64,000 nt of DNA. Source: Mesaphorura yosii (Eukaryota; Arthropoda; Collembola; Poduromorpha; Tullbergiidae). The translations under genes and the position numbers were made by a program. How positions within the stretch are numbered: position 1 is the first letter of the stretch; each line of letters starts with the position of its first letter. Below, piece after piece: positions 6,098-59,000 of the stretch. The notes under the pieces are model-generated. The model ran no database searches. It saw only the letters and a list, made by a program, of their open reading frames with translations, and was not told the origin of the DNA. Location: NCBI GenBank assembly GCA_009869945.1, contig WIXG01000113.1, forward strand, positions 1-64,000, written 5' to 3'.

Positions 6098-7248
6098 ATG
6101 TCTTCAACCAAGTGCGAAAACCGTAAGTTTTTCTGCCATTCTGTCATCTCCCTTCCTTCGTGCTTTCTTCAAGCTTGAGCGTTCACTCATCGCTTTCTTC
6201 TCAAAGTGAAACAGGCTGGTCAGGGCGTAGGTTTTTCGTTTTGTTGAATGTTTTAATAATGTTAGCCAGAATCCAAATACGACCTATAATTCAAAAAACT
6301 AATCTTAAGACACGAAATTTCGTGGCAGCATAAGCTTTCCCGGCCAGAACTAGCAAATTGCATCCATAAATGTGTGACTATGTAGATACGTCCATCTCAT
6401 CGTTTCAGGACAAAAGGGCTCACATTCCAAACTATCCAATCCTCATTCCTATATGTGCGCTTTAATATCGCTACTGCCCTGTATGGAGGTTTTTAACTAC
6501 TAATAGTGTGAAGTTGCAAAATTGATGCTTAATTGATGTTTGTTCATGTTAACTGATCACAATTGAATGGAATGCATTATTACATTCAGTGTCAACGTCC
6601 ATTCCAGAGGTCAGGTGTCAGACGCCAAATCGTCTGTCGAGAAATGACATCCTTCCATTCCATTATCAGAAATCAGATAATGCTATTTGAATATTTAATT
6701 AAGTCACTTCATGCCTTTTACTTTGTCTCTAGTCAACTGCAAATGCACGGACTGTCAATGTGGACCGAGCTGTGTCTGCGGAGCTGCGTGCCAGTGCGCC
6801 GACTGCAAATGTAAGGCAGTAACATGATTTCGCTATCAGTGAGATCGAGTGAGAAAATAAGCTCTTCTTTGAAATTGTAGGCGGCGATTGTAAATGCGTT
6901 GGTGGCTGTTCGTGTGGCCCAAATGGCAAAGGACCCAATTGCCAATGCGTGGATTGTAAATGTGGTGACTGCAAATGTGGACCGAACTGCGCGTGTGGCA
7001 AGTCTGGAGGAGGATGCCAGTGCACTGATTGTAAATGTATGTTAGCATCATTCAGATATCATTGAATCAGGATTTGCATAGGTCAGTGTGTCATTTTACC
7101 CCTTGACGTATATTATACAGGTGGAGATTGCAAGTGCGAGGGTGGCTGCACTTGTGGATCGGCTGGAAAAGGAGCCAACTGCAAGTGCGTCGATTGCAAA
7201 TGTGCTGATTGCAAGTGCACTGATTGTAAATGCAAGAGCAAGAAGTAA
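6098..7248 (+). CDS. Multi-module cysteine-rich metallothionein
   Basis: A cytosolic metal-binding protein that would chelate Cu, Zn or Cd through thiolate clusters. Four exons (6098-6122, 6733-6810, 6881-7036, 7121-7248) give 128 residues with 39 cysteines (about 30%), no aromatic residues and many Lys, Gly and Asp. The sequence is a repeat of units such as CGDCKCVGGCSCG followed by NCQCVDCK, seen four times with variation, then a tail CADCKCTDCKCKSKK. Nearly every Cys sits in C-x-C or C-x2-C. All three introns (610, 70 and 84 bp) are phase 1, and the last two split a Cys codon at the module boundary. The start ATG follows TGCGCGC and precedes a short exon ending in a clean GTAAGT donor. AATAAA follows at 7284. 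The spacing does not match the classic vertebrate or fly forms I know, so the subfamily is left open. Confidence 0.87.
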
Positions 7249-7874: not shown

Positions 7875-10800
7875 TCATTCATCCTTTGACGAGGAAGTCT
7901 CCTCCTTTTGACCCTTCATCTTGGAAGGTCGGCGATGACGGCGTGGATGAGTGCTTTCCATGCCAGTCTTGTCAATCGCAATCAGCGGATGAATCGCAGT
8001 TCTCAAGCTGACAAAGATCTTCGGGAACAGGATTTCCTGTTGTGCAAGCAGCTGCTTAATTCGGTAACGTTCAGTTGGTGCTTCGAAGCATGCTGGGCAG
8101 TTTTCCGAGATGATGGGAAGTCCGCGCGACTCGGCAAATTCTCTCAAGCACTTCTCTCTCACGTTCACAAATGGACGAATCACGCGAAGATCGCCCTCCC
8201 TATGCACCCGGAAAGATAATAAGAAAATTTGCATATCAGTTTGCTGTATTAAAATATTTTAACCATCAGCTTCAATATTCGCTTACTTGACGGTGTATTT
8301 TGCCTTCATGCTGCGCATGAGTCCATTATGGAAGACAGACATGAAAAAGCTTTCAGCAAGATCGTCCAGATGCTGTCCAAATGCCAGAACATTGTAGCCA
8401 TGCTGACGAGCAGTTGCATAAAGCCTGCCACGCTTCAAGCGACTACAGAAGCTGCAGATTGATGTCACGCATTCTGGACCTTTTTCCATTGCAGTTGGCA
8501 TTATGCCTTGTTCTTCGTACAAGTAAGGAATGCCCAATGATGCCAAATAAGGAATTAGCGGTTTTGGATTGTAAGCGGAACTTCCGGGATCAACGGTGAT
8601 GGCGCCCAAAGTGTAGGTGATTCCTTCTTTTGCAAGCACATGTTGAAATTGCTTCATTGTGTGAAGTAGACTCAATGAGTCTTTGCCGCCAGAGAGACAG
8701 ACGAGCATTTTGTCACCATTTTCAATCATTGAGAACTCCCTAATTGCCTGTAGTCGTCAAAACAGTATCATCAATCATTTGTTCCATCTTGCAGTATTGA
8801 TCACGGATACGCGAATTTTACGAAGACCACTTACCTGAAGCGTCGGCTTGAAGATATTCTTCGGTGGACAATGCCATCTTGCACCACCTTTCGGATCCTT
8901 GACTTTCTTCAGCTTCGTCGGAGATTCTGCCGGTGTTTGCTTTTCTGGAGTTTCGGTGCTTGTGCTTGCGTCTGTACAAGTTGCTTCTTGAGACTCCGCA
9001 GACTGAGACAATTCTGACTTGTCCGAATCATTTCTCTTTATGTTGGAGTTCATCAGATGTCCGCTCAATGTTCGAGTTCTTCTGAATCGGTCGAATCGCT
9101 TGTCCTTGGCATTCACACTGGACGATCTTTCTCTGAGTCCATCCGGATCAATACCTTGTTCAACTTGAGAGATTACTTCACGGATTTCAGACTTGAGTTC
9201 ATTCGCGATACTGGTGGCATGCCGTAGCGTCTTGTTAACCACATCATGAAAGTCATCAGAAGAGTGTGAAATGCAGTATAATTCTTGTGATGATTTGTCC
9301 AGAGAGTTGATTGGGCTTTCAGTGCTGGTTGAAGTGTACGGAATTGGAGCCGGGCCTTGAAGACAGGCCACTTGAGTTGGCTGCACGTAGTCTGCGCTTG
9401 GCTGCTGCACAAACATTGACTGACAATTGTACTGTTGCGGAGAGTTGGAGTAGCAGTAACCGGCGCCTTGAACTGGAGACGCAGCATAAGCCATTTGATC
9501 ACCGAATCCATTCACATGATTTTGCTGCAAATTGTTGAATGAGTTCATGTCTGGACTATATGATTGGTGGCGAGTGAAGGGGTTGTGCGTTGGAGAGCCA
9601 ACCATTGGTCCCGCTGCAGCTGCAATCGGTTGAGTGTAGTTCATAAGATTGAGATTGGCCATTTTTGCGTTCATATCTGAATATAAATTGGGTTCTGAAT
9701 AGCCGGTATTGTATGCTGGAACACTTTGTTGAGTTTGGTATGTCATGTGCATCGGACTAGAACCTTGCCCAGTAGGAGTCGACGGGTAGAATTGTTGCTG
9801 CTCAGTCGGTTGCGCTTGTACCATTGGTTGCTGGACAAATTGCTGTTGTGAGATTACATTTTCTGTTGAGACGAAGGGTTGAGGCACTTGATAAGCGTTT
9901 TGATACCCGTAGACGCTTAGCCCATTCATGTGTTCTTCAGGATTGTAGTTTGAACTATCTATTTCCACCGTCATGTTCTGTGCAGCCATGTTAGGTACTG
10001 GACAATAGTTGTTGTTTATTACATCCACTGAACTTGTGCTAGTATCCTTAGAGATCGAGGTCTGAACAGTTTGTTCTGGAAGTCGTTTCTTGTCAATGCT
10101 GCTCCTGAAACATATCCTGGGCCCGGTGACGGTTTCTCCAACGAAGTAATCGTGATCGCTTTCATGCACACTCAAGTCGCTGGCGGAGTCTCCTGCCTTT
10201 ACACGCCGTGCTTTCAAATCCGAAACTGAGCTCACGGCTGCCTGCATGCACTGATGTGGAACGCTCGTGTCGTAGTATTCCACAGTGCGAGTCATTATTG
10301 GAAAAGTCTTGACCGTAAAGGGCTTGGCGATGGGAGCTTGGTTCCAAGAGCCGTTCATAATGCTCTGACTTTCAGATGGCAGGAGAAACCATCGTAATTG
10401 AGAAGATGCGGTGTCAAACACCAGCGACTGATCCTGGAGGTTGCGTCGTTTGCAAAGCTGTGAAGACAAAGTAATTTACAATTGAATATCAATATTTGGC
10501 AGACACGGAAGTTTTTCAGATATGAAGTGTCTGATCTTACATTTTCTGCGTTAGAAAGAATGTTTCTTGCTTGTTCCAGGCACTCTTCGTAATTTGGATA
10601 ATCTTCACTGTTATTTCTGGTTCGCTCCTTGCTCTTTATTCCCTCCGCGTCAAAAGTCGCCCAACTCAACCACTTTCGATGCTGTACCATCTGCCAAAAG
10701 ATATCATTTAATAAATGCGCCTCGATGTGCAATTATCAAATCCTCTCTTACGTGATTTTGGTGGTGGTGAAATTCTCCAGTTTCCGGGTTGCAGTTGTAC

Positions 10801-13800
10801 AAAGGAAGAAGTTTCCATCCATGTTGTGCCACCAGTTTCACAGCCTCTGAAATGAATTCGGCCTCTTGGACTGAAGAGTAGTATGGAATAGAAAGGCGGA
10901 CAAATCCAGGGCGAAATATTTCGAAGGAGGAACATTCCTCTTGTCTTCGTAAGTGGCTTCTGTCCAGTCGGCTGTGAGTAAGATGTGAAGAGTCATTCAT
11001 CATTAAGATATGCCTCAATTATCACATGATTCGTAATTATTAGAATTCGCACTTCACCTGTCCTCCAGAAGCAAATTCTCATAAGCGGTAGCAAGTTGCT
11101 GGTCAATCCCAAGCAGAGATTGTGAGTAGGGGCCAGCACAAGCACAGCCGCCTCTTGTTTGCAATCCAAACAAGTCGTTCAAAAGTCCAACAACAAAGTT
11201 GTAATGCAGATAGTAACCCTAAATAGTAAACAGATGGAAATAATGCAGGACTCAGCAGCACTTCAAACCGACATTTTTATGAAGCAATGGAACATGTTGT
11301 GCTCTTAATAGCAACATTTCCACACGTGAGATGGATTGCATTAAATTTAGGCATTCGCTTACAGAATGTGGATGATCGATCAAAAATGAAATTATTGGAG
11401 TTCTTGGACCAGCAATTGGGCCGAGTAACTTTATCTCGTCGCACTTTGACCAGGCTTCAAAAATTTTTCTAGAAATCAAGACAGTAGTAGTAAGCTTAAA
11501 CGTGGTTTACTTTCGAATTTGCAGCATGGGCAATGGACACTGGCTTACCTTGCAAACACTTCCTCCCTGCTCATGATGTTTTTCGAGCCAATTGAATCCT
11601 TCAGGCGAAAAACTAAGCCCAATCGAATCGACTCGACGATCGCAGGCGTTCCTCCTTCCTCGCGGTTCTCCGAATTCTACATAAATGGTATATTACGATC
11701 ACGATATTGAGAAATGTGTGATAACATAAGATTTCGGAGGGACAAACCTTCAGATATCTGTGGCCCTCCGGTGTGACAAAGAAAACTGTCCCTCCACCTC
11801 CTCCGTTTGGGATGTGATTATCCAGCAAGACTTTCTTCGCCACAAGAACACCTTTACAAAAATCCCATTCAACTTTGAACTCACAAATTAATAATATTGC
11901 TAGTCTTAACTTTACCAGGAGTTTGTGGCCCACCCACAAATTTATGCCCAGAGAAGAAGATGGCATCTTTCTTCGCAAGTCCTTCTTCCGGTCCCAACAC
12001 AATTGGATTCATTATAATATGCACATGCGGAGCTGCCGCTGAGTAGTCCCAAAATGCTAGTCCACCATATTTGTGCATCAGAATAGTCACCGCAACGTCA
12101 TCAGTCGCTACGCCGGTCACATTGGACGACACGGCGAAGGTCCCAATGAGCAGTCGATCCTTCAACTCCGGGTCGTTCTTGACTCTCTCCAGGTGCTCAG
12201 CGAGAAAATTCATGTCAAACTCTCCGTTGATATTTTGGGGCACATAAATCATCTGCAATTGAACAAATAGATGAGTCGTACCAAATCTCAAAATCGTGGC
12301 ATCAACGTCGTTGAAAGGCATAAGAGTTCAGCTGGCATACTTTTGCTCCAATATCTCTCCAGGGTAGAAGATTGGAATGATGCTCAAACGGACCAACAAA
12401 CACAACGGGTGGAGCCCCACCCGACTCATACATTAAGTTTTGTACAAGTTTATGCACTGGTCCAGTGGCACCGGCTCCACAGAAAATGACAGCATCGTGC
12501 TCAGATGCCCCTACCGAGTTACGGACGATATCCCGGGCTTCATGTCTGGAAAAAAAAATCGAAGCCCATTGAAACCAAAAAGCAAACAACCTTGTTAAGC
12601 ACATCATCAATATTTAACAAATAAGATTTCGATTTCAATTTTTTTTTCATGGGGCATACAATCATGATGAGTTAGTGTAATTAAATATAAGGGAATGTGT
12701 TTGGAAACTAATAAACTTAAATACATGCTCCTCCTATTTCTTCCCTGTGCCGCCGTTGCAAACTCTTTCAAAACTAAAACTCAAGCTCACCTGAAGTATG
12801 TAGTTTGAGAAGATGTGTTGGTTGTAGTGGTGTGAGTATTTCCGTAATATGGCAGCACGTGGTCTCTGATATAGTCCTCAATGCACCGGAGGGGCTGTCC
12901 AGATGCGGTTTGATCGATGTAAATATCTGGTTTGAAAGATGAGAATGGAATAGTGCAGATTAGTACGTGCTCTACAACCTATTGGCCACTATTAGACGCA
13001 ATTTCATCAAAAAACTTTTCATTCGGAGAATTTAACTACAACTTGTAGACATTGTGCAGACAACAGTCAATTGCTAAGTGTGTGCGGAAATTTTCCTCGT
13101 AAATTTGGATTAGGAGAGGAAATTTATGAGATTTGACAAGTTGTTCGCAAGATGAGAACCTTGCATGAGCGGATAATCTCGCTGGCTGTTGAGTATTTAG
13201 TATTTTGCATTTCAGGGTCAACATACGGTACCGTGTAAAAATAGCTAACAAAAAAGTGACGTCTGCAAGGGTTAATTCTGCTTGACGAGCAGATCTCTAC
13301 TCTGCTTTCTACAGTTTTACTTTATAAAATCTGGAAATTTCAATGTACATGTTATGCCTCATGCACACGAAGGTACTGAATTTACTTTGCCCTGATCCGG
13401 TCCAAGTCAGGTTCGCCCGGACTCAAGCAAGAGCCTTAAACAACTTAATAGCAAAGCAAAATCAGACTTATCATAATACGCGCTTTATTACGTGCAATAT
13501 GCAGCTGCCTTTGTCCACACGCTCGTAAAAATTAATACTAAGAAGCTAATGCACTCCAGCCACATTCACATGCGAAAGCGAAACTGGTTTCCATCAGAGA
13601 CCAGAGCAGGGTTGCCACATAGCGAAGTATGAAGACCCTGGCCAGGAATGCACTCTTGAACTCGACGACACTCGATACTCAAGGTGGAGATGCATTGAAA
13701 TTTAAATGACATAAGTATTTAAATCTGCTTAGTATTCTTTCAGTCTGCAGAGCACAACTTGTAATCTGCTACCGACGAGCAGACGTGCACGCTTTCGTCT

Positions 13801-16800
13801 TTGTTGTTTCGTTGTGCACTTTGTACAGCTTACATACGTCTGGTGCACACTTCATTGCTGTCAAAGTGCCAACAATTTGCAAAATATGCAAAAATGGTTG
13901 TTGTTTGTCTACGCATACAAGAAGACCCTCGTCGTGTAAAAATCGGCGCACTAGGGAATATCTTCGCGTAGTTTTTGCACGAATGAAATAGCCTTCCGAT
14001 TTACGCGTCTACACGACTTTTGCGTCGCGGGCGCCGCTATTAAAAACCGTATGACGAATCAGTAAGATTGTGAAGTGTAGCGGAGTCGAAGTTCGGCCAT
14101 AGTAAAGGCGACCCATGAGGCGATATGATCTAATTTAGACTTTTGCTCAAGCATGACAACGGGATTTAGGACCCATAAACATTTGATCTCCAAATCTGAA
14201 TAATACGCAAACAAAGCATCAAGCAGCATCCATTAAAATTCAAAGATGAAGTCGTCGGCCACCGACGACGCTGACGTAATGTGATTGCAGTGGCGAATGA
14301 CTTGCATGTTCTACTTGTGGGTTTCGAGATTTAAGGAGGATAAATGTCGTAAACTGGAAGTAACATTTTGAAGACGACAGAGTGTCATTATTCAAACGAT
14401 TTCAAGATTTTTTCCTGTGGCAAGCACAAACCGTGTCTCAGAAATGAGAAACAGAAAACTAAGATGGAATATTTTTATTTATACCGTCAACGAAAGTAGA
14501 AAAAATTCAGAGGATTGCGTCATTTCCTAAATTGTGGCATCGTAAGATTAACTGAACTATTTGACAAAGGACAATTATGTGCCGAATTCAAAGGCAAGTG
14601 GCACGGTCTGATATTAATTTTTTAAATTTGTTTGCTGTTTCTTCAGGAAACATTAATCAAAATCTTCTATCATGGACTACTCGATTATACGTTTGCTTGA
14701 GAATGGAGAACAGTAAACAATGACAAGCTTTGACAGCTTGCAAAATAAGCTGAAATTGTAAGAAACTACGTACTACAAGTACTATTAAGACAGTCGGCAC
14801 CATTTGAATTGCAGGTCGTGATTTTCGAGAACATCTATTTTCGCCTTGTATCGAACTTAAGCACTCCCGATTAAAATTACTGGAAGGGTTAATCGAAGGG
14901 CGTGTATGTATGAAGCAAATGAATGCGAATGACGAACAATGAATGAATCATTTCAACACAAAAACCAAACCATTATCTCATCCGTGCGTTTCATACTCTT
15001 ATTTATTTTAATGCATAAAATTTAATATGCCACAAAACAAAGACAAAGGCAAGCATCATGCGATTGTTTGACTAATATAAGTAATCTAAACTTTGACGTG
15101 ATTGGAGTCACCAAGTCGAAAGATGACAAAATCTATTACATTTTGCAGGGTTCGCAAGAAATTACACAAAGAAGTAAAAAAGACCGACTCTGCTACATTC
15201 TACGTTATCATATTTTTAAACTCCGAAATACGGTCAGCAATAAGAAGCGCGATTCGAATGCCTGCGTTTTCTATCGTTGAACTGTTTAGTTCCGTGCTCG
15301 CACCAGAAAGTTTGAAAGGGTGAATCATTCCCACTACACAGACACAGACTCTCGTTCATCCTTCATGAAGACAAAGAATTGGAGCTGATCCAAAGCAATC
15401 ATCATCTTAAGGATAATATTTCACGAACTAAATACGCGAACAGAAAATCACCTCCCAACTATAAACAAACCTTCCATTCTTCGAATGTGCTCATGAATGC
15501 GATTCGACCTCCGCTAATTCACATTCGCATTGTCTGAATTCTGCAACTAAAGAATCGCTGCTAATTGATGCTAAGGTTCATTAGCTCATCTCTCTGCAGT
15601 GCAATACAGTTCAATGAGCGGGTCTTACAATCTCACGCGTGGTGTCTTGGCATTAGAGTCTGGCAAAATTTGCAGTGAGATGCTCGGCTCGTTCAATAAC
15701 TGTTGGTAGAATGAACGAGCAAATGGTTTGCATTCCATACGTGTGGTCCGTCGAATTTTAGCAAAGCCCTGAACATTGGCAAATTCGAGTCACGAGTTGC
15801 AAAAATGTGCTCATCCTTTCAAGTTACTAGTGGCGGACTATCATTTTCAGCTTTAGCATTACGCATTAGCATTCTCACTTTTGAATATCGGCGCACTTAT
15901 CGGCATTCAATTTATTTTATGTTTTTTCTTCACATATGCACCAATGTGTGTTTACAGATTTTACGAGTGCATATGTATACAGGTTCGGGCACAGTAGCTC
16001 AGGCTTACTGCCTCACTTGACATTGAATTTGGAAGTCAACAAATAAACAAGCATGCAAATGGAAGCACCAAACAGCAAACACATGGACACGTCCAGAATA
16101 CGAGGCATGATGATTCGCGATTCTCATGCCGTATCGTTATTCACTTACCGAAGCAAATTAAGCGTTGCATAATGATTAATGTGTTATGAACTATAAGCTC
16201 CACTCAAACAGCCGAACAACATACGGACATGAGGATGCGACATGTACGTGTTTGAGATATTCTACTCGACACAAGTGGTACAATAATACAACCTGCTTCA
16301 TGTTTGCTCCAATTACAATCCAAGCTTAATCTCAAATTGGATATTACGGCAATCGACAATTGCTAATCAATCGTAATCTCGCTCTACTGGAATCACAAAC
16401 CAGAAACAAGTCCTGGCCTGACCTTGATCTGTATCTGTACGATTTACAAGCATAACATAGCAAATCCCGTTGAGGATTTGCCGGGTGGAGATTGAATTGT
16501 TAAAGTGTTTCATTATTTTCTTAGTGGCCTTTTCAGGACATCAACTGTCACTGAAAGCAAGAGCAGGCAAAGAAGGGAAAATACTTTCAGTTGTCGAGCT
16601 CTCGTTTTACTTGTGATGACATCATGCGCCAAAATAAATTTCATGGTGAGACACTCATTTCAATTTTAATGCTATTTCTTATTTATCATCCTGCTGGGCA
16701 ACACTTGCGATGCTTTCTGGTTGTGTCGCACTTATAACCCGGCAAGAACATCAATCACCAGACATATTTATTTCTTGCACATGGCAATGGCTCATCAGTG

Positions 16801-19197
16801 CCACAATGTAATAAACTATCGACTGTGGTTATAAAACCTGAATCTTGCGTCTCATTTTGGGAAGGGTTTAAATTCAGTGTCAGCTCGACGTGTGCCGAAA
16901 TAATGTGCACGTGTCGCAGTACGAAGCACGACAGGACTGGATGACTGTGCTGTCTTCATAAAGGAAGTGAAAACCATAACATATTCCTAATTATAGACGC
17001 ATAAACTTCCATGCAGAAGCCTAATACATATGAACGTTGTGTTTTTCAATAACACCTCCACGTCAGTTGGTCTCTAAAGGTGGTACACACGTTTGACCTT
17101 CAAAATTGAACCATAATCTTAGCTTTAACAAGCAGCAACTTATTGGCAGCATGCAAAATGCGGTGTCATGAATCGAGTTTCTTTTTCCATAAGATTTTAA
17201 AAGTTACAAGATGTCAAATTACGCGATTTCGCCGGAAAGCACGATCACGATTGCTGGCACCTGCAGCGGCAGAGATGCTGATGATTATTCATTGTGCAAA
17301 CTGTACCGATGACGACTGATTGCTGATTGTGGAAAACAATTTCATGAATCAACTCATTCATTCATACCATGTATAAAATTAGGAGTGCAACGCGTACTAC
17401 AAAGTCGACAATGAGAATTGTATAATATCATGATCAGAACGACTCAGAAGCATTACTCTCGAGATGAAGTGCCAATTGAGACAAAAGAGCGAATTGATAC
17501 CGAAATTTGGGCAATCAGCACTGCTGCACCCTCAAAGGAAAACCATTCCACATTTCCGAATAATGCATTTATATTCATACAAAATGTAAAACAAAACCCA
17601 CTGACCATACTTTGCATACGCTGACAATTGGTAATGGGATTGGAGCTAGTTCTATTGCGTCACAATTGATTGCATATGATATGACATTCATCCCAGTTCA
17701 ATCATTATGTAAGCCCGAGACTAGGATTAGCCGGGCAGCAGGAGCAGTAACTCCAAAGTCTACAGTGAAATTGAAATATGACGACGGTAATACATTTCAG
17801 CAAAATATTACCATTGCTCATCTCATCCATCTCGGTCATATTGCCATACCGTATTGTCGAGCTAAGAAAGTGCTATGCAACTGGCCTGGTGACTGGTGTA
17901 TTATTGCTGTGGTATTTTATAAGTGCATTTGTGCATTTCGATCGACAATTTCGAGAAGGAAACCACAACACCGCGTAGCCTGCGTCGTTGACCAGACTGG
18001 GCCTGGGCTCGAGCTTGTTCGCAATGTTAACGTCTGCTTAACTCGAAACCGATAATGTATAAGTGTATTAATAGACCTTTAGACTTGTAAACAAAATATA
18101 ATACATGTCTCTCAATGTTACGATACGTAGTACGTAATACAGAACTCACAGCTTAGGCTTTCAGATTGCGAATTTTGCTACGTCTTACTTGGCAGTGGCA
18201 TCTCACAGTCAGCAAAATGAGAATACCTGGGCCTGAATGCTTATCGCACACTGTTGGCAACCAGGACTAGGACTAGAAATAACCAGACTGATCATACCGT
18301 AGAAAAATATTTCCCATTATCGCATTCACCATTCGATTTGGACTCAAGAGTGAAAGCCCCCCATAGTTTGCGCATTTGCATATGGTTCAGTTTCTCACTC
18401 GGCTCGATTCGTTCTCAGCTTGACCTTTGCATGAACCCTCGTTAAATTTATCGACTTGCTCTCGTAACCGCAATTTCAGCCTGTACTTCGTTCCATTTGC
18501 TATGTAACCTAATATTAGACCCTGGCACTACTTACACAGGCGGCAGTGTCACTAGCAAACTGATGCTGATGCAATTCCAATGGCTTACCTGCCAACTTAA
18601 GTTAGGCCATAATTCGCTTAATTTGTTTATGTAATAACAGTATGAAGGTATGATGGACTGACAAGTTTTACCTCAGCGTAGGGTCATTGAATGGGTCATT
18701 CGCAAGAAGTCTGACATGCCGCAGATTGTAACATTGAAGAGTGCGAAGAGTGCGTCATAAGCGAAATAAGTAACTGAATAGAATGTTGTTGACTTCATTC
18801 GTCCTTAACTTTGTTGTTTATTGGTAATAATTTATTACTTACTTCGTCTTGGTCCAAAGGGTCCCTGGATGACCGTCTCTCTGCCAAAGGAATTATGCTC
18901 CACCATTTCGATGAGGCCACGTATACTTCTTCTTTGCATTGACTTTGATTTTGACTTCTTTGATTTGGTTGTATTCTTCGACTTGGCCGGTGTGCCTTCC
19001 GGAATTTCTCCGTCTGCCTGCAGTTGTGGAGGCTCGGTTGACACTGGAGCGGTGGGCATGGCGTAAAATGTGCGATCGGCATGGGGCTTCATAAGTGGAG
19101 ACGTGTCTCCAGTGTTTGGTACCATTTGGGGAGGTGGGCTCAAGCAAGGTGCCACTTCGACAACTTCGACATCACCAGGTTTTGATTCGCTATCCAT
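7875..19197 (-). CDS. Class V aminotransferase (cysteine desulfurase-like) fused to a TtcA-type PP-loop tRNA thiolase
   Basis: Thirteen exons join without a phase conflict: 19197-18843, 12926-12791, 12545-12341, 12252-11916, 11851-11748, 11676-11549, 11468-11363, 11218-11058, 10971-10752, 10690-10541, 10457-8835, 8747-8287 and 8199-7875, giving 1,436 residues. Residues 1 to about 95 are low-complexity, with a Lys/Ser run. Residues about 95-590 are a PLP-dependent class V aminotransferase: IYIDQTASGQPLRCIEDYI, GNTHT, FCGAGATG, FEHHSNLLPWR, the PLP lysine in SGHKFVGG (about 336) and RGGCACAG (Cys about 482 and 484). A Gln/Asn-rich linker follows (about 600-1165). Residues 1176-1436 are TtcA-like: SGGKDS (about 1194-1199), CSFC (about 1273-1276), GQHLDD and NCPAC. 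By family knowledge the first part would take sulfur from cysteine and the second would adenylate and thiolate tRNA. The substrate in this animal is inferred. ATG 19197 has context AAAATGG; a longer N-terminus is possible. Confidence 0.92.
8835..10457 (-). other. Large linker exon of the fusion enzyme, encoding a disordered Gln/Asn/Ser/Pro-rich segment
   Basis: One phase 0-0 exon of 1,623 nt (541 codons) carries the whole connector between the aminotransferase and the TtcA domain. Its middle is rich in Gln, Asn, Tyr, Ser, Pro and Met (for example QQQFVQQPMVQAQ). Its end has an Arg/Ser patch (SSSVNAKDKRFDRFRRTRT), then an acidic and Thr-rich stretch. Just before the donor, GGARWHCPPKNIFKPTLQ resembles the lead-in of TtcA proteins. 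No folded domain is recognised in the rest. The composition is prion-like or condensate-type; this is judged by eye. Confidence 0.8.
12927..18842 (-). other. 5.9 kb first intron of the fusion enzyme
   Basis: It is bounded by a GTAAGTAA donor next to 18843 and a TTTCAAACCAG acceptor before 12926. The other introns of this gene are 61-245 bp, so this one is exceptional. I saw no nested gene. The longest frames inside start at non-ATG codons and show no domain. It may hold enhancers. Confidence 0.7.
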
Positions 19198-48100: not shown

Positions 48101-51100
48101 GCCCGAACATATACTGATAGCTGAGATTGTGGCTGAGGCTCCGCTTTGAAGTTGAGAAACTAAAAAATTACACGCCTCCATCCTCCTGACAAGAAATGGG
48201 GCTCGGGTGCCGCGGTGCGAAAGTCACCACCACCAGACTCGAATGTTTATGAAAATTAGAATGGTGATTTTTCATTCTGCGCGGAAGAGATGTCTGTCCA
48301 ATTTCGTTACACTTGCGAAATGGGAGATTTATTTGCGTACATGTGTTTTTCATGCGTGGTTTCAGATCCGAATTGGTTTAGCCGTAAGTCATTTTGTCAT
48401 TTCTTTCTATCTTTGTAGGACTTCGCTCTTCATTATTACGAGTGCACTGTACTGCAAACTTGCCGTAATCGTCTGCCTGGCTGTTTTGCTATCAGAAGTT
48501 GTCACCATTAATGTCCCCCTGCACTTCTTTGAGGTAAGTGCCAGAGAAATCGTGAGTCGTTTAAATTGACAGCAGAACAAAGCAGTCTTTCATTTGCAAG
48601 TCATAAAACTGAATTTTAATCGCATTCTGTTTGCATTTGCGCTATTTCCTCCGCAGCCACTCTTCACGTACTTGTATGGCGGAAGCATTTTGTTCTTTCT
48701 CTACGTGTTCTGCTATCTGCTCCACGACTCCTCTCAGAGGAAGCGACAACGAAATCGGGAGAAGAGCAAACAGGCCAAGAAGGATGAGGAAGCATCGGCT
48801 GAGGCCGCCGTCGCCAAAACGGGAGAACGCAAACAATCCTTTCTCCAAGTAAGCCACGTTTCCATTGCTTGTCTGTCTCGCTGTCGTACACAATTCACAG
48901 CACTCGGCTAAGAAAAGAGAATGCAAGCGCATAAACCAAAAACTTTGCGAAGCACTTAATTCAGTTTCAGTTTATTTTTTATTCGTTTCATGCCACTTTA
49001 CTGTTATTTTGTTTTTGTTGTTGCCCATTATCAGGAAGGTCGTCACAAAGCAAAGTATGAAATTGCAGAGAGAGAAAGACATGAGCCTCTTTTGGTTAAC
49101 GAGGTTTGTGAATCAATTATCATATGATTTCTTATTCTGTCGGGGTTGATTTTGATTTTGTCGTTGCTTTATTAACACTCGGCACTAATCTGGGAAGTTT
49201 ATCTGTTACTGGCGTTAACATCGCACCAGACTTATAACACGGGAGATTCCTCGCCAGTTCTGTCCTCTTGGGCCTTGCCAGTGAAAGTGAACTCCGCATT
49301 CAATCAACTGACTCTGACGTTTAGTATTCGACAAAGGAATTCTCTTTCATCCTTCTCAAAGCTACTTGAATGAAATTTAATCTTCAATGTAAAGAACAAG
49401 AGCTGTTCACTGTATTCGTTTCCTCGTACCGGTACCATGGACCTGGAAATGCGAGAACAATCGAGTTTAGTGAATTGTGCACAGTAATCAGCAAGAGTTA
49501 AGTTGGCATCGACTCAACTCAGATATATTTGAAATTGGACGCTCTTGTCATTTAATACTACATAAAGCAAACTTTTTCCGTTCTCTGTGTTTACTTTCTG
49601 CCAGTGTAACGAGTTCAGTTGCAAAAGAGTCAATTTGTGCGAGCTACAATTCATTGTCAATGAAGCTATGCGCTTGCCTTTCCTCTTCCTATGCCCATGT
49701 TTTGTCTTTCGCTTCGGCGTGACAAACACGACATTATTCACTTTCACTCTCGGCTGCTTCTTTTCGGTGAATTTGCCCATTTTTGTGTCGGAATGTGGGA
49801 CTGGTGAAAGGCGTTGGATGTCATGTTTAATCGGGCGAACGAATTAATGCTCTTGGAACTAAGCTCATATGTTTAAACTGACAACAAGCACATTGCGTTT
49901 TTGCGTTGGGCTAACATTAGACATCCCTGTGCGTATGGCAAAGAGATCATTGTTGAAATATTTGCTTGCAGAGTATGCTAAAGGGCGTTCGCAAGGGCAG
50001 CGACTCGAAGGACGTGAATTTAAACGACGGGTCCGGAGATGCTGGCTCAGCACCTGCTGCTCAGCCGCCAGCTCAGAGTCAAGAGAAATCCCATGGCGAA
50101 GCGTCTTCGTCCAAAGATGGCCCAAAACCAAAAACAAGTCAAAGTAATTAATCATCAGACCTAATTAGCGCTCTAATTGCGGATGGCTCATTGCGATGCG
50201 TGTTGTTTGACAGGTGACACCGCTCATGGCTCGTTTTTCCTTCGTATGGGAGCATTGGGTAAGTAAAGCGTCTTTTTCGCAGTGTTTTCGGAATACCCTT
50301 GGAAAAGAGTTCGGGTGAACCAGACGAGAGTTGTCTCTGTGTTCCCACCATAACCCGGTCAATGCACCTCCTCAGAAGGAAGTGGCTGTAAATTTCAAAG
50401 TAGACACTACCAAGCTCGAACCGAGCAGATTCTTATGAATCATGTCCAGGTTTCAATTAACAATTGATTTTGTCAGTTGAACAAACTTCATTTGGGCACG
50501 TTCCCGAGTTCAGTAGGAGCGTGGCACGGAGAGAAGCATAAATCTCGATCAGTTAGTCTGCTTGTTTACTCGGCAGAGTTCTCAGACCTTCTGCGTAGAA
50601 GCAGGATCGAAATACTGCTCGAATCGATTTTGTGTGAGCAGGAATCCATTATTCTAATTTTGTGTTGGATTTGATTTGAGTGAGCCAACCAACTTGTCAA
50701 TAACAAAGTTTCCAGAAGAGTTTATTTATTCAAGTCGATGTTTGATTCTTTTGTTGGAGGGCTCCTTCATAAAAGACAATTTGATAGATCACTTCAATTT
50801 CTGTCTCGAAGGAGTTCAGCCAAAGTGTACACATCATATTTCATCTTCAGTCTGTCAGCTTCAATACCGCCAAACCAAGGCCAGAGTTATCATGCTTTCT
50901 TTCTGTGCGTTACAGCATTCGGACTTGGCTCGATGGTATACATTGGACTGGAACTTGGATCTTTCATTGACTCGATTCTACCCGTTGACTCGCCCTGTCA
51001 CAACATTCTGCGCGGAGTCAATCCACTTCTCCAACTCATCTTCACATTCATGCAAATGTACTTCATCTTCATCAATGCAAGAGTAAGCATATTTTCGTCT

Positions 51101-53254
51101 TTTGTCCGTGGGCCACTGGGAAAAGATTCTTTATTAAAGCAAGAAGTAAAACAGTTTGCGAACTCGATGTCTACATTTTAATGATCATTTTTTTCTGTTG
51201 AATTTGACACGTTCCCGTCTCATAATAATACGATAATTCTAATCTTACGACTTACCATATTTTCAACTCTATGCCAAAAGTTTGCGTTTACATGAACGCA
51301 CTTTTGTGCGAAGGTGTCCTAGTCAGCAAAGTCCAGCATAAAATCTTGGGATTTATTTACAAATGTGGTTTATTCATGGCTCATCTATTCTCTTTTCTTT
51401 CTCCCTATGAGCAGTTGCGAATACACAAATTCAAGATTATTGCCAGATTTGGACTCATGCACGTGGTGGCGACAAATCTCTGCGTCTGGATAAGAACACT
51501 CGTACGTGAGTGTGTGAAAGAAGTGACTCGTTATCAACTGAAGAGGGGCTATGGGATCTCGGAAGGATACATGGTTCTAGGTACTTTGCACTTTTACTCG
51601 TCAATGCCTTAGTATTTATAGCAAGATGAGTCATATCGGTCGTGCGAGTGGCAAACGGATCTTACGTAATGATTTTATGGCAAAAATATGATAATGAGGA
51701 AGGGCACTCGATGCCATGAGATTCAACCAGTGTAGTACGACATTTTAAATTGTGACTGCATTGCAGAGGGAAATCGTATACTGCACGCAAGATTGGGGTG
51801 GAATGGAACAACAACCGAATCTCCCATCGGCACATTCGGCAGTGGAGGGTACAATCTGAATCAAGACGTCGGGTTCAAGGCGCCCGGCTCCACCGAGGCA
51901 CCGGTGGCAAAGAATTTCTCATGCGAAAGGAAGGATCCGTTCATGGGCACATTCGTGGCTGATGCAGCTCCTTATCTGTTCCCTGTTGTAATCGAGTACA
52001 GTCTCATTGCTGCTGCAGTGGCGTTCATCATTTGGAGAAATATTGGCCGCGGAGTACCGACCAAAACGTGAGTGCATCTTGTTAAGACAGTACGACGAGT
52101 TGGTTACAACTTGCATTGATTCAATTTCTATATGCACAGAACAACTGAAGAGGGCGACGAAGGCCAGCAGGAATGGGAAATGGGAGCCGACGTTTACAAT
52201 CGCTACACTTCTGGGAATGGGGACGGCGGTTCTGCCTCTGGACCAGTAGATTGCGTTGGAGCAAGCAAGGGCCTCTTCTTTGGCCTGTTGCTGTTGGTGG
52301 CCGCACTCATCTGCCATATTCTGTACTTCGTTCTGGTATCGCGTGAGCAACTGAAACTCTTGGCGATCTGCTTGGCTGATGGAGCTCATGGCGTTCTTCT
52401 CGGAATTTCATTCCTGGCGACTCTGATTGGATTCATACGGTGAGCCTTACCATACGGATTCTTACGCATTTAAGTTAGTAAATTACGGAAGCATGTGTTC
52501 ATGTTTGCTTGCGTTTCGTCTGCCAGAGTGAGACGTCTGAGATTTCACGGAGACCACACAAGTCCACTGCGGGACCTTCTCCTGCGTGTGTCAATTCTTG
52601 GTGTGTTTGCGTACGTCATCTTCAGTTTAATAGCCGGGGTGTTTCAGGGATTGAGTTTGGACATTCCATCGATTTTGGTGGGAGGAGTCGCGATTCTCGT
52701 TATCCTGCAGGTCAGCGCCAATCTGTGCCAATCACTTTTTGCATTAATATCGCAGAATTGAGTACGAAGTGCCTTGCGTCTGCAGGTCATCTTACAAATG
52801 CTCTTTATTTCTGATGTCGGCCGAAGAAGAATCCATCTTCCCGAGCACACAAGAACCAAACCAGGCAGACAAATCGTGACACTGCTCCTGATCACAAATT
52901 TGACCATGTGGGCTATTGTAATTTTGGAAGGTAATTGGGAAATTTAATAATAATAATAATAATAATAATATAGTATTTAATAATAATAATTGCAATTTAT
53001 TCAGGTAGGTAATTTCATTCGCGCATTGCCATTTTGAATTCCAGATTTCCAATCTTGTTTGTTTATTTTCAGCGCGCAAAGTGGAACTTGACCCGGTTCA
53101 GCTGAACATCTATCAGTACATCCCGTGGCTCATGGTTCAGCGTCTTGCCCTTCCGCTGTACATCTTTCACCGCTTCTTCTCAGCAATCACCCTGGCTGAG
53201 ATCTGGAAGAACACCTACACCCTCAAGTACCTCCCTGTGGCCACAGGACCCTAA
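39074..53254 (+). CDS. otop: Otopetrin-family proton channel (whole gene, long isoform)
   Basis: Otopetrins are plasma-membrane proton channels, in insects linked to acid sensing. The long isoform joins 39074-39328, 42067-42197, 48419-48533, 48657-48848, 49035-49103, 49972-50143, 50214-50258, 50916-51082, 51415-51580, 51767-52067, 52140-52439, 52527-52710, 52786-52930 and 53073-53254: 807 residues with all phases compatible. Twelve hydrophobic segments are visible, from SLFIITSALYCKLAVIVCLA (TM1) to IPWLMVQRLALPLYIFHRFF (TM12). Strongly typical stretches include MVYIGLELGSFI, KIIARFGLMHVVATNLCVWI, the VDCVGASKGLFFGLLLLVAA segment, and the C-terminal RFFSAITLAEIWKNTY. The loop between TM2 and TM3 is long, charged and disordered (exons 48657-50143). 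The loop between TM5 and TM6 holds a Gly/Thr-rich stretch with an NFSC glycosylation sequon. The N-terminal 128 residues are soluble and not conserved. An alternative start exon exists at 45695. Confidence 0.94.
39329..48418 (+). other. otop: Long otopetrin 5' introns
   Basis: The intron is 2.7 kb after exon A1 and 6.2 kb after exon A2 (2.5 kb when counted from the B exon). Outside exons A2 and B I see no coding exon. A short hexamer repeat of the type GGCAGT lies at 47001-47027. The stretch at about 45000-45690 is GC-richer and probably holds the promoter and leader of isoform B. Antisense frames there (45041-45547 and 45748-46311) start at non-ATG codons or mirror exon B and are not called. 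Confidence 0.6.
45695..45948 (+). CDS. otop: Otopetrin alternative first coding exon, isoform B
   Basis: It starts at ATG 45695 in a strong context (AACAATGGG) and encodes MGGGQQVHVATVESEADSYN, then a Lys-rich tract, then EDTLLNLIVLNR. It ends in phase 2 at CG|GTATTT, which joins the first transmembrane exon (48419) as R-TSLF. No acceptor of suitable phase links it to the exon at 42197, and the preceding few hundred bases are richer in GC and lack coding signs. It is best read as the first coding exon of a transcript from an internal promoter. This isoform would have 763 residues. Confidence 0.8.
50214..50258 (+). other. otop: 45-nt micro-exon of otopetrin
   Basis: Flanked by TTGTTTGACAG and GTAAGTAA, it encodes SDTAHGSFFLRMGAL, the start of TM3, which continues directly as AFGLGSMVYIG in the next exon. 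It enters and leaves in phase 1, so skipping it would keep the frame but remove the start of a membrane segment. Confidence 0.85.
52945..52990. repeat. TAA trinucleotide microsatellite
   Basis: About nine TAA units at 52945-52971 and four more at about 52980-52990, interrupted by TAGTATT. The repeat lies in the last otopetrin intron (52931-53072). Confidence 0.9.
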
Positions 53255-56050: not shown

Positions 56051-59000
56051 TCACTTTGGAAGTGGCTTCCAATTTGATGGAATGACAACCGTCTTGGTCA
56101 TTCGCCGCTGCGTTTTTCTTAACGACTCATCTTTTGCGTAGGGCTTCACCACTCGAATTTCTCCACCGCCAAACGAGTTTACTGCTCTGCTGGAACTCTT
56201 CCTGAACTGCGTAGTCGAGGACGATGTCATCAAATCATTGATCACAGCCTGATCGAGTTTTGTGTTGAGATTCGTCCCATAGTTCATCTCTTCTGACCGC
56301 TGGCGAGTCTTCGCAAAACTATCCCTGCTTTCCATTCCTTTGAGCAGCGCCTCCATCGACATGATTTCCGCTGCATCGTCGTCTTCGTCGACACCGGCGC
56401 TAAGCAGCACCTGCACAAGTTGCTGCACTTCCTTGAAACTGTCTCGCTGCTTCTGATCCGCCTTGTTGGACTTTTTGACAAGCGCCTTTGAATTGAGTTC
56501 AGGTATTCTGCTCTGTGGAATCGAGTGCTTCGCAGGTGGCAGAAGTGGTCTCAATTCCTTTCTTGAATTGTAAAACCACGACTTTGACGGCTGATGTCCG
56601 ATTGTTTTGTTATGTGAGTCTTTAGTTTGGCTGCTTGACGATGACGAGAACGAAAAGAAATTCTTAATTGATTGAAGAATCCCGCCTCCGATTGATTTCG
56701 ATTGGCTTGGCGGAGCCTCCTTCTTGTTGCGGAGAGGCGATTTTTTCGGTGGCAGCACGACAGCCACAGGCACATGATTCGAGTGTTGCGCCTCAAGAAC
56801 GGGGAATTGATTGGTTCGTCGAGTTTGTTTCGTGGTCGGTGGAGTCGGCCTGACTCCGTATTGAGTCTTCTCTCGCGCTTCACTATGTTCGATCTCCTGC
56901 AACATTTCCTGTAGCTTCTCCTTCAGGAGCTCCTTCACGTACTTGCGAAATTCTGTCTTTGGGATTCCTTTGCTGGAAATGCTCTCTGGAATTGCTTTGC
57001 CCGTTAGCAGGCTGTTGGATGCGCTCGTCTGTTGTGTTGCTGCAATGGCCGAACTGTGTTTAGAGGCACTCGATTCGTTGTTGACATGCTCCTGCTTAAA
57101 GTTGCTGAATGAAAGCGGGCTCGGAGGGTGCCTCAAAATATATCCAAGCGCAGAGAGTTTCACAGCCAACTTGTCTGCAAGCAAATCAATTGCAGGCTGT
57201 ACTGTGGACCGAACTCCATTTTCACCGGACACCTTTCCGTTGTACTCATCGAAGAGGTTTCTCTGGGCCTCCAACTCGCCAAGTGGCTTGTATTTGCCTA
57301 GACCCTGTCCACCTGTCTTGACTTTACTATTGCTGCTGCTGCTTTTGTAAGAATCAGCAGCTGGCTTTTTGAGGAATTTGTTTGCTCGCATCGAACTGGA
57401 AGGGGAAGAACCAATCTCGCCCATTGGAACTAGAACCTGCAACGGGAAAAACGTTATCATGGTGTCAGTGGACAAGAGCTAGGCTAAATCGGTCCAACTT
57501 ACTCCGTACGGTGTGTAGATGTTTGGCGGTGGTTTCTTCTTACTCTCATAGTATTTGTTCATCATGTCATCGTGGTATTTTGCCGCCAGAACATTCATCA
57601 TCTGTTCTCTTGGATGTACGTGCACAACCTGAGGTCAATTTAGAATTTAGACCCGAGCGTGTTGAATCTAACCGAGTAATTAAATTTAGCTTACCTCCAT
57701 TCCTGGACCCAAACTATCTAGGGAAAGTTGGTGAGGAACAGTAGGATTCAGTTCAGAAGCACTGATGACCGGAATCTCACGCCCGTGCACTTTCGGTCTT
57801 ACTGGAATCATTGCCTCTGCAGGAACCAGGCTTGGGAACATGAGAACGTACGGTTTATCACTAAAAGGACTGCTGGGTTCTCCATTCCCCCTCTCCTGGT
57901 TACCCTCAGAATTCTCTTGCGTCAGATTCTTATCGTACGAGTCATAGATATCATCGTCGTTGTTCTTCGGAGGTCGTTGTAGGCTGAAAGGGTTCTCAAA
58001 GTCAGGATTTTCTTCTATGTCATTGTTTGGTATTTGCTGGAACCGGGGTGGTCTCTCGTAATTTTGTTGCTCTTCGTCCTCTTCGGGAAAATCTTCGTTG
58101 TTCGAGTGAATACTTTGCGGACGGTTCCTTTCTTCGCGGTATCGTGAACCCTGAAATCTTGTGGTAGGATATTTGTGCTCGGATGTTTGACGATATCTTC
58201 CACCAGAATTCTGGCTACTTTGGACTCCTTGAGCTATTTGACTAAAGTCGTGGAATTTGTCCAAATGATTTTCGACGGGTGGACGAGAAGAGAGAAGGTT
58301 TTGGTCACCTTGATCGTCCGAGCTTGGAAATTGTCCTGCATTTTGCAGGAATGGATCAAAATGATACTGCAGCTGGTGTCCATTTGGTAGGGGCGGATTG
58401 GCTGGTTCGTAGTCCGGATGCGTTGCCATCGAGTGCGAGTGTGGAGGATAATGCCGATGTGGAGTGACCTGTTGCATTCCATGCTCATCGGACGGTGGAA
58501 GTGGGACGTTCACCAGCCCGGGCATTGGGAGGGTGATAGTCGGTGCTGCATTCAACCTTCCTTCGTAGCCATCAGAGCCCGCACTGATTACTGCAACCGG
58601 ACCTCGTTTCCCGTTGATATTGTTTCCATTTGCCTGTTCCATCAGTTTCTTCGTCTCACCACTCGTTAAACTTCCTGCCGAATAATAGTACGAGGTAGGA
58701 ACATTTTGAAGTGTGGAACCAAAAGTTTGCGGCACAGCAGCCGGCATTGAGTCAGAGAACTGTTTGAAAGGCGGCAGGGACCGGAAACCACCGGCATCTA
58801 AGCTTTGTGCGTTTGAGGAAACGGTGCTGGGGTTGGAATCAGGAAATGGATGGAACTGCTGGATCGAACTTTTCGTGTATGATGGAAGACTGGTATGGCT
58901 TTGCATGACGTTGAAATTATTTCCAGCGAATGGATTATGGGGATTGTTGGTCATTTCTCCAATCATGTTCCCAAACATATTTGGGTCAAACATTGAGAGA

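Follow-up and report, generated by a model that had tools for sequence, protein, structure and literature searches.

The locus described here raises the question of whether a single animal protein could both release sulfur from cysteine and pass it on to transfer RNA (tRNA). It lies on the minus strand of a 64,000-nucleotide stretch from the collembolan Mesaphorura yosii (assembly GCA_009869945.1, contig WIXG01000113.1, positions 1 to 64,000), hereafter called the window. According to an earlier sequence-only reading, 13 exons with matching phases form one frame of 1,436 residues, in which a cysteine desulfurase-like enzyme is fused to a tRNA thiolase of the TtcA type. The gene model was reproduced exactly when the exons were joined from the minus strand: the frame runs from an ATG at 19197 to a TGA at 7875, the exon phases agree, and all 12 introns have GT-AG borders, the first being 5.9 kb long and every other one shorter than 250 bases. 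A Pfam search with the spliced protein placed an Aminotran_5 domain at residues 120-490 (E 4.5e-35) and an ATP_bind_3 domain, which belongs to the PP-loop family, at residues 1188-1358 (E 4.4e-12). The motifs that had been named for the first half (SGHKFVGG and RGGCACAG) and the second (SGGKDS, CSFC and NCPAC) could also be located in the protein: SGHK at residues 333-336, RGGCACAG at 479-486, SGGKDS at 1194-1199, CSFC at 1273-1276 and NCPAC at 1362-1366.

The evidence that both halves belong to one gene is carried by exon 11 (8835-10457, minus strand; residues 635-1175), which bridges them. Its 1,623 bp form 541 codons without a stop; none of 2000 mononucleotide shuffles of the exon stayed open, and the remaining five frames contain 20-35 stops each. 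The 5' end of the exon codes for SSQLRWFLLP (LRWF at 10397-10386), the conserved C-terminal motif of the family to which the first half belongs. The comparison set for this half consists of 86 bacterial rows, made up of the best 80 of 581 relatives from bacterial and archaeal genomes together with six plasmid loci. Across these rows the letters of the motif are kept as L in 81, R in 83, W in 84, F in 84 and P in 82, and [LM]RWF is found in all but three (L003, L006 and L050), that is, in 83 of the 86. The 3' end of the exon codes for PPKNIFKPTLQ, whose counterpart in L109, a bacterial protein related to the second half, is PPKRILKPVGE; the animal sequence continues into exon 12 as AIREFSMIENGD, which aligns with PPKRILKPVGEAIRRWNMIREGD of the same protein. 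The two conserved ends are separated by some 500 residues in which Ser, Gln, Pro, Thr and Asn are abundant, presumably a flexible linker. The junctions proposed earlier on either side of the exon (10541/10457 and 8835/8747) agree with this homology, LRWF-LP standing at its 5' end and PPKNIFKPTLQ at its 3' end. Since one exon holds conserved sequence of both families, a stitched gene model is unlikely and was rejected as an explanation; going by the sequence, the fusion is probably real. An internal start codon and a promoter within such a long exon are conceivable, in which case the halves would be separate genes or transcripts and the fusion would only be apparent, but with one exon, in one frame, that has conserved sequence of the first family at one end and of the second at the other, we consider this highly improbable.

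Bacterial contamination was also rejected, on account of the 12 GT-AG introns and of the animal genes in the window. These are p300/CBP, with an exon that codes for a TAZ1 zinc finger at 113-661 on the minus strand, and an otopetrin, with exons at 50684-52440 on the plus strand, where three open frames match the Pfam Otopetrin family. Because these exons share the window with the fusion gene, we take its source to be an animal genome.

The first half is encoded by exons 1 to 10 and the beginning of exon 11, all on the minus strand. Exon 1 (18843-19197) provides the start codon at 19197, which is the first ATG of its open frame, and a Lys/Ser-rich N-terminal tail (residues 1-118). The Aminotran_5 domain begins in exon 2 (12791-12926). 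Exon 3 (12341-12545) contains EHHSN (residues 218-222, positions 12385-12371), corresponding to the SufS-like catalytic His region, and exon 4 (11916-12252) contains Asp301 and the pyridoxal phosphate (PLP) lysine K336 within SGHK (11952-11941). The domain continues through exons 5 (11748-11851), 6 (11549-11676), which carries an EEGGTPAI motif, and 7 (11363-11468). The active loop RGGC482AC484AG (11155-11132) is located in exon 8 (11058-11218), R536 and the C-terminal portion of the PLP enzyme in exon 9 (10752-10971), and the C-terminal extension of the family in exon 10 (10541-10690).

Among solved sequences, 43 matched the first half at E values up to 0.1 (best 8.8e-27), and their names are cysteine desulfurase or synonyms of it, apart from one 'Aminotransferase'. 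The 86 bacterial rows are 36-46% identical to the animal half, and Lys336, Asp301, His219, His220, Arg479, Cys482, Cys484 and Arg536 are invariant in all of them. Cys484 aligns with the Cys of the SufS HHCA motif. The PLP Lys, the Asp, the His, the catalytic Cys and the Arg, as well as the Gln of the D-x-x-Q motif, have known roles in SufS. With SufS and CsdA the first half shares the fold (by way of a bacterial relative, see below), the PLP lysine and the position of the catalytic Cys; it differs from them by a Cys-x-Cys loop, by a change of that Gln to Ala, and by being about 150 residues longer at the C-terminus. Both the RGGC-x-CAGPY loop and the LRWF extension, which mark a bacterial SufS-like family with members in Rhodococcus, Sagittula, Pseudomaricurvus, Myxococcota and others, are present in the animal half, and the likeness extends over most or all of its length and to the active-site residues. 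The closer bacterial relatives are standalone proteins whose annotation goes no further than the class V PLP type ('aminotransferase class V-fold PLP-dependent enzyme'), with a thiolase neither fused nor nearby in the loci examined. Plasmid records matching the first half number 192 at E 1e-5, more distant desulfurases included, and 79 of these cover at least 80% of the query.

A structural model of a bacterial relative from this family, and not of the animal half itself, was obtained from a 26-row alignment with a mean pLDDT (predicted local distance difference test) of 86.7. Its first 50 matches in the PDB are all SufS-type desulfurases, some of them labelled selenocysteine lyase or CsdB, with TM-scores (template modelling scores) of 0.83-0.88 when normalised to the target and 0.61-0.65 when normalised to the query. 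Judged by its sequence, the first half is a member of the bacterial SufS-like family, distinct from SufS proper, and it probably acts as a cysteine desulfurase, taking sulfur from cysteine. In its tree the animal sequence sits on a long branch (4.16) among mixed phyla, which is why a bacterial donor cannot be named for it. Two scans of viral contigs gave no relatives, and a third gave one distant match, a class V PLP enzyme with 27% identity on a 306-kb contig from IMG/VR (L107).

The second half starts at the 3' end of exon 11 and is completed by two exons on the same strand. Exon 12 (8287-8747) contains SGGKDS (8693-8676), CSFC (8456-8445) and GQHLDD (8378-8361), and exon 13 (7875-8199) contains the ENCPAC region (NCPAC at 8102-8088), the end of the thiolase, a basic tail and the stop codon. 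Against the TtcA model NF007972 this half scores 194.2 bits (E 2.9e-57), compared with 50 bits for TtuA and 33 bits for NcsA. The motifs expected of TtcA, a PP-loop of the form SGGxDS and two C-x-x-C pairs, are found as SGGKDS, CSFC and CPAC. Canonical TtcA and the animal half have in common the PP-loop, the C-x-x-C-S-R-L block, the second C-x-x-C and H-x-D-D, whereas the second motif of canonical TtcA is mostly P-C-N/D-L-C and that of the animal half is ENCPAC.

The significance of this difference appears when bacterial relatives are compared. Out of 299 genomes of Pseudomonadota, the phylum of Neptunomonas, 115 match the second half at E 1e-20 or better. Ordinary matches, with at most 144 bits and 33-41% identity, account for 113 of them; the two outliers are G258 (240.6 bits, 53% identity) and G040 (194.3 bits, 47%), and both share the ENCPAC motif with the animal half. 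A tree built on 42 rows separates, with a support of 100/100, the 23 other rows from a side that unites the animal half with 18 ENCPAC rows (16 of them different), so that the animal sequence does not group with the canonical TtcA rows. At the ENCPAC site those 23 rows have P-C-N/D-L-C (18), a CGC-x-LC form (4) or neither (1, L099). Four weak rows (L100-L103, below 50 bits) were left out of this tree, which comes with the warning that long branches meet in it; the branch of the animal half is long (1.53), and its placement within the ENCPAC clade is not fixed. The bacterial ENCPAC proteins (L108, L109 and L125-L141), from the G258 family and from G040, thus share with the animal half the motif, 47-53% identity and the clade, and differ from it by being standalone. 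From its sequence, the second half is best described as an ENCPAC-type sister subfamily of TtcA and not as canonical TtcA. The earlier assignment to the TtcA type is borne out by the scores, which favour TtcA over both TtuA and NcsA, and by the motifs that are kept, and it has to be narrowed to this subfamily.

The distribution of the ENCPAC type gives an indication of its function. In the family of G258, a gene with 71-100% identity to the ENCPAC gene of G258 is present in 60 of 61 genomes, and the ENCPAC letters were read in 15 of these. When the same 61 genomes were searched with a canonical TtcA (E 1e-10 or better), these 60 gave a single match each; all 60 places agree row by row, and no second TtcA-family gene was found in the 61 genomes searched. 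Since nothing of the TtcA family other than the ENCPAC gene was detected in these 60 genomes, the gene probably replaces TtcA there, and the ENCPAC type probably does the job of TtcA. Outside the G258 family the type is rare. It was found in 2 of 398 Pseudomonadota, in a sample that overlaps the 299 genomes mentioned above and with both matches being rows of the search model; these scored 454 and 464 bits, against at most 225 bits for the other 22 genomes passing 1e-60. It was found in none of 188 genomes of the phylum of G037 and in none of 201 of the phylum of G028, and no ENCPAC-like outlier occurs among 149 genomes of the phylum of G016, in which nothing exceeds 145 bits.

The simplest reading of the fusion would be an animal protein that comes with a sulfur donor of its own. 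According to the excerpted texts of PMC5372739, PMC7694415 and PMC10067955, the sulfur used by TtcA can be traced to the cysteine desulfurase IscS, its activity needs a [4Fe-4S] cluster bound by three cysteines, and the base is activated by ATP. We give about an even chance to the proposal that here one polypeptide performs both steps of a tRNA sulfur relay, with 2-thiocytidine (s2C) at tRNA position 32 as the most likely product. In such a relay, the N-terminal SufS-like domain would hold PLP on K336, take sulfur from L-cysteine and carry it in persulfide form on C484, with C482 perhaps taking a share. The long flexible linker would then allow the sulfur to be delivered to the TtcA-like domain, where it would be carried by a [4Fe-4S] cluster bound to three of the four cysteines (C1273 and C1276, together with either C1363 or C1366), and the PP-loop would adenylate the target base. 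The protein would be cytosolic. The sequences show the fused frame, the families of the domains, their conserved residues and the subfamily of the second half; that each half is active, that sulfur passes internally, that a cluster is bound, which base is modified and where the protein resides are inferred from these features. Thiolation of cytidine 32 is favoured as the outcome on the ground that TtcA is replaced by the closest bacterial subfamily; this product is a fair inference, though no more than that, since the second half belongs to the ENCPAC sister subfamily and not to canonical TtcA.

Several results, concerning the first half, the second half and the bacterial loci, weigh against the relay. 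The first half scores 122.7 bits against the NCBI SufS model TIGR01979, well short of the cut-off of 475.1, and the Gln of the SufS D-x-x-Q motif is replaced by Ala304, as it is by Ala in 84 of the 86 relatives. What had been called a cysteine desulfurase-like half thus retains the active-site residues on which the name was based, but falls below the SufS cut-off and belongs to a bacterial family of its own, set apart by the Cys-x-Cys loop and the Gln to Ala change. Both the missed cut-off and the altered residue would fit a different class V PLP enzyme, for instance a catabolic lyase of cysteine-like compounds, in which case the thiolase would receive its sulfur from elsewhere and the fusion would serve co-regulation or tethering. 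A catabolic setting is also suggested by the genes found near some bacterial members, which include ABC transporters, an aminoacylase and a thiazoline-carboxylate hydrolase (the latter in 2 of the 6 plasmid loci), and by Lrp-type regulators within 3 kb in 5 of the 86 loci. On the other side, the catalytic residues, including the position of the sulfur-carrying Cys, are all invariant, the top 50 fold matches of the bacterial relative are desulfurases, and a few neighbouring genes resemble handlers of persulfide or sulfite. Considering both, we regard such another PLP enzyme as unlikely.

The neighbouring genes deserve a closer description. Flanks of 3 kb on both sides were available at 50 of the 86 loci, and of at least 9 kb on both sides at 32. 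Most of the loci have no neighbouring gene in common, no cluster occurs in more than four of them, and neighbours related to sulfur are few, which is one of the points counting against the relay. A match to a metallo-hydrolase or a rhodanese lies within 3 kb in 7 of the 86 (L001, L006, L014, L036, L052, L054 and L078). Four of these seven were kept as persulfide-dioxygenase-like or hydrolase-rhodanese proteins (L001, L006, L014 and L036); the metallo-hydrolase of L052 was dropped as a persulfide handler, being glyoxalase-II-like by score, and the matches within 3 kb of L054 and L078 are weak, the strong match of L078 being 6.7 kb away. A gene of the TauE family, whose members are sulfite exporters, was found within 3 kb in three loci (L006, L014 and L036). 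The neighbour in the Rhizobium locus L006, which has a TauE-family gene alongside, scores 519 bits against the dioxygenase part of Blh, with a cut-off of 625; it is the only one that scores best as a Blh persulfide dioxygenase, and yet it stays under the cut-off. Of the 86 rows, the Pseudomaricurvus member L014 is the most similar to the animal half (46% identity over 544 columns), and directly downstream of its gene are a TauE-family gene and a metallo-hydrolase. This metallo-hydrolase scores higher as a hydroxyacylglutathione hydrolase (107 bits) than as Blh (85 bits) and reaches neither cut-off; its description as dioxygenase-like is our own reading. In the neighbours of L001 and L036, hydrolase and rhodanese scores occur together: a hydrolase-rhodanese protein adjoins the member from Rhodococcus DK17, and another, with TauE, is near the Streptomyces member L036. 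With small counts, these genes are suggestive of a family that would free sulfur, as persulfide, from cysteine or a closely related compound, and the settings of L006, L014, L036 and L001 could possibly represent a module for the oxidation and export of cysteine sulfur.

For the second half, the TtcA score lies below the model's cut-off of 272 bits. Two bacterial ENCPAC proteins also fall under it, with 231.1 and 196.1 bits, and no NCBIfam cut-off is reached. The modified base is a further difficulty, as PMC7694415 names no domain other than archaea and bacteria for s2C. It could be that the relay is real and the thiolase half serves a different tRNA position, or another RNA. This would be in line with that assignment of s2C, with the membership of the second half in the ENCPAC subfamily instead of canonical TtcA, and with the alignment of its second cysteine motif with the ECP motif of TtuA. 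The TtcA score is, however, far above those for TtuA and NcsA, and the ENCPAC gene is the one TtcA-family gene detected in nearly all genomes of a bacterial family (60 of 61). We consider another target to be rather unlikely, and keep s2C at position 32 as the expected product of the relay.

The two families are also not linked in the bacteria that were searched. Searched with the thiolase half at E 1e-3, none of the 86 loci of the first family gives a match within the flanks given above; the 10 ENCPAC loci examined, which span 11-20 kb each, give none to the first half, and the whole genomes of G258 and G040 contain no match to the first family. Five genomes were searched with the first half in all, and two others than G258 and G040 gave distant matches of 26-28% identity. 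No desulfurase was found among the neighbours of the ENCPAC genes, which appear TlpA/DsbD-like by eye. Conversely, 39 genomes that carry a member of the first family, drawn from the 80 genome loci, were searched with the thiolase half; 21 of them gave a match at E 1e-3 and 12 at E 1e-20, and the best matches from these 12 all have the ordinary P-C-N/D-L-C motif. A bacterial operon or fusion as the source of the gene was rejected on the basis of the 0/86 and 0/10 linked loci. The animal gene unites two enzyme families that are not seen together in the bacteria examined, and a donor can be named for neither half.

The long branches of both halves (4.16 for the first, 1.53 for the second) could be taken to mean that the gene has lost its enzyme function or has acquired an unrelated role. 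The catalytic and cysteine-motif positions are nevertheless kept in both halves and the frame of 1,436 codons is intact, which makes a gene of this kind very hard to credit.

The fusion of a desulfurase to a sulfur-handling partner is a known design. In the excerpts of PMC8931425, a desulfurase-rhodanese fusion (CD-Rhd, from Pseudorhodoferax) is described as an active enzyme with two functions, and ABA3 as a desulfurase with a MOSC domain. In these proteins, as here, a desulfurase is joined to a second sulfur-related domain; the partner is a rhodanese or a molybdenum cofactor domain in the known cases and a tRNA thiolase in the present one. What is unexpected is the thiolase partner and the animal host. 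No report of a desulfurase-TtcA fusion was found in the open-access literature, which was searched partly by broad queries, and such fusions may sit unremarked in public proteomes.

In eukaryotes, cytosolic thiolation of tRNA takes place at the wobble uridine, U34 (PMC10067955, in excerpt), with sulfur that comes from NFS1 via TUM1 and Uba4/MOCS3 (PMC8931425, likewise). We put forward tentatively, and at less than even chances, that some animals have a self-contained cytosolic enzyme, put together from two bacterial families that are unlinked in the bacteria examined, which leads from cysteine to s2C in tRNA and bypasses the mitochondrial NFS1, MOCS3 and URM1 route; in that case s2C would be known from a eukaryote for the first time, and animals would have a second and independent pathway of tRNA thiolation. 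If true, it would mean that an animal has a bacterial-type, self-supplied route of tRNA thiolation separate from the NFS1/MOCS3 supply, and it predicts a modified base that is not recorded for eukaryotes in the review PMC7694415. It would also offer a one-protein system for studying how sulfur passes from a persulfide to an iron-sulfur thiolase. The fusion draws attention to two bacterial groups for which no tested function was found, namely the desulfurase-like enzymes with the RGGCxCAGPY loop and the TtcA-like proteins with the ENCPAC motif.

A sea urchin protein named 'Aminotransferase class V-1' was found in the cilia of normal embryos according to the excerpted text of PMC3812683. Elsewhere in the window, low-complexity open frames of 1,368 and 475 residues without a Pfam match lie at 56051-61792 on the minus strand. 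Just past the 3' end of the fusion gene, at 6853-7248 on the plus strand, are two tandem Cys-Lys-rich open stretches with CKC repeats, of which the first has no Pfam match and which look metallothionein-like by eye.

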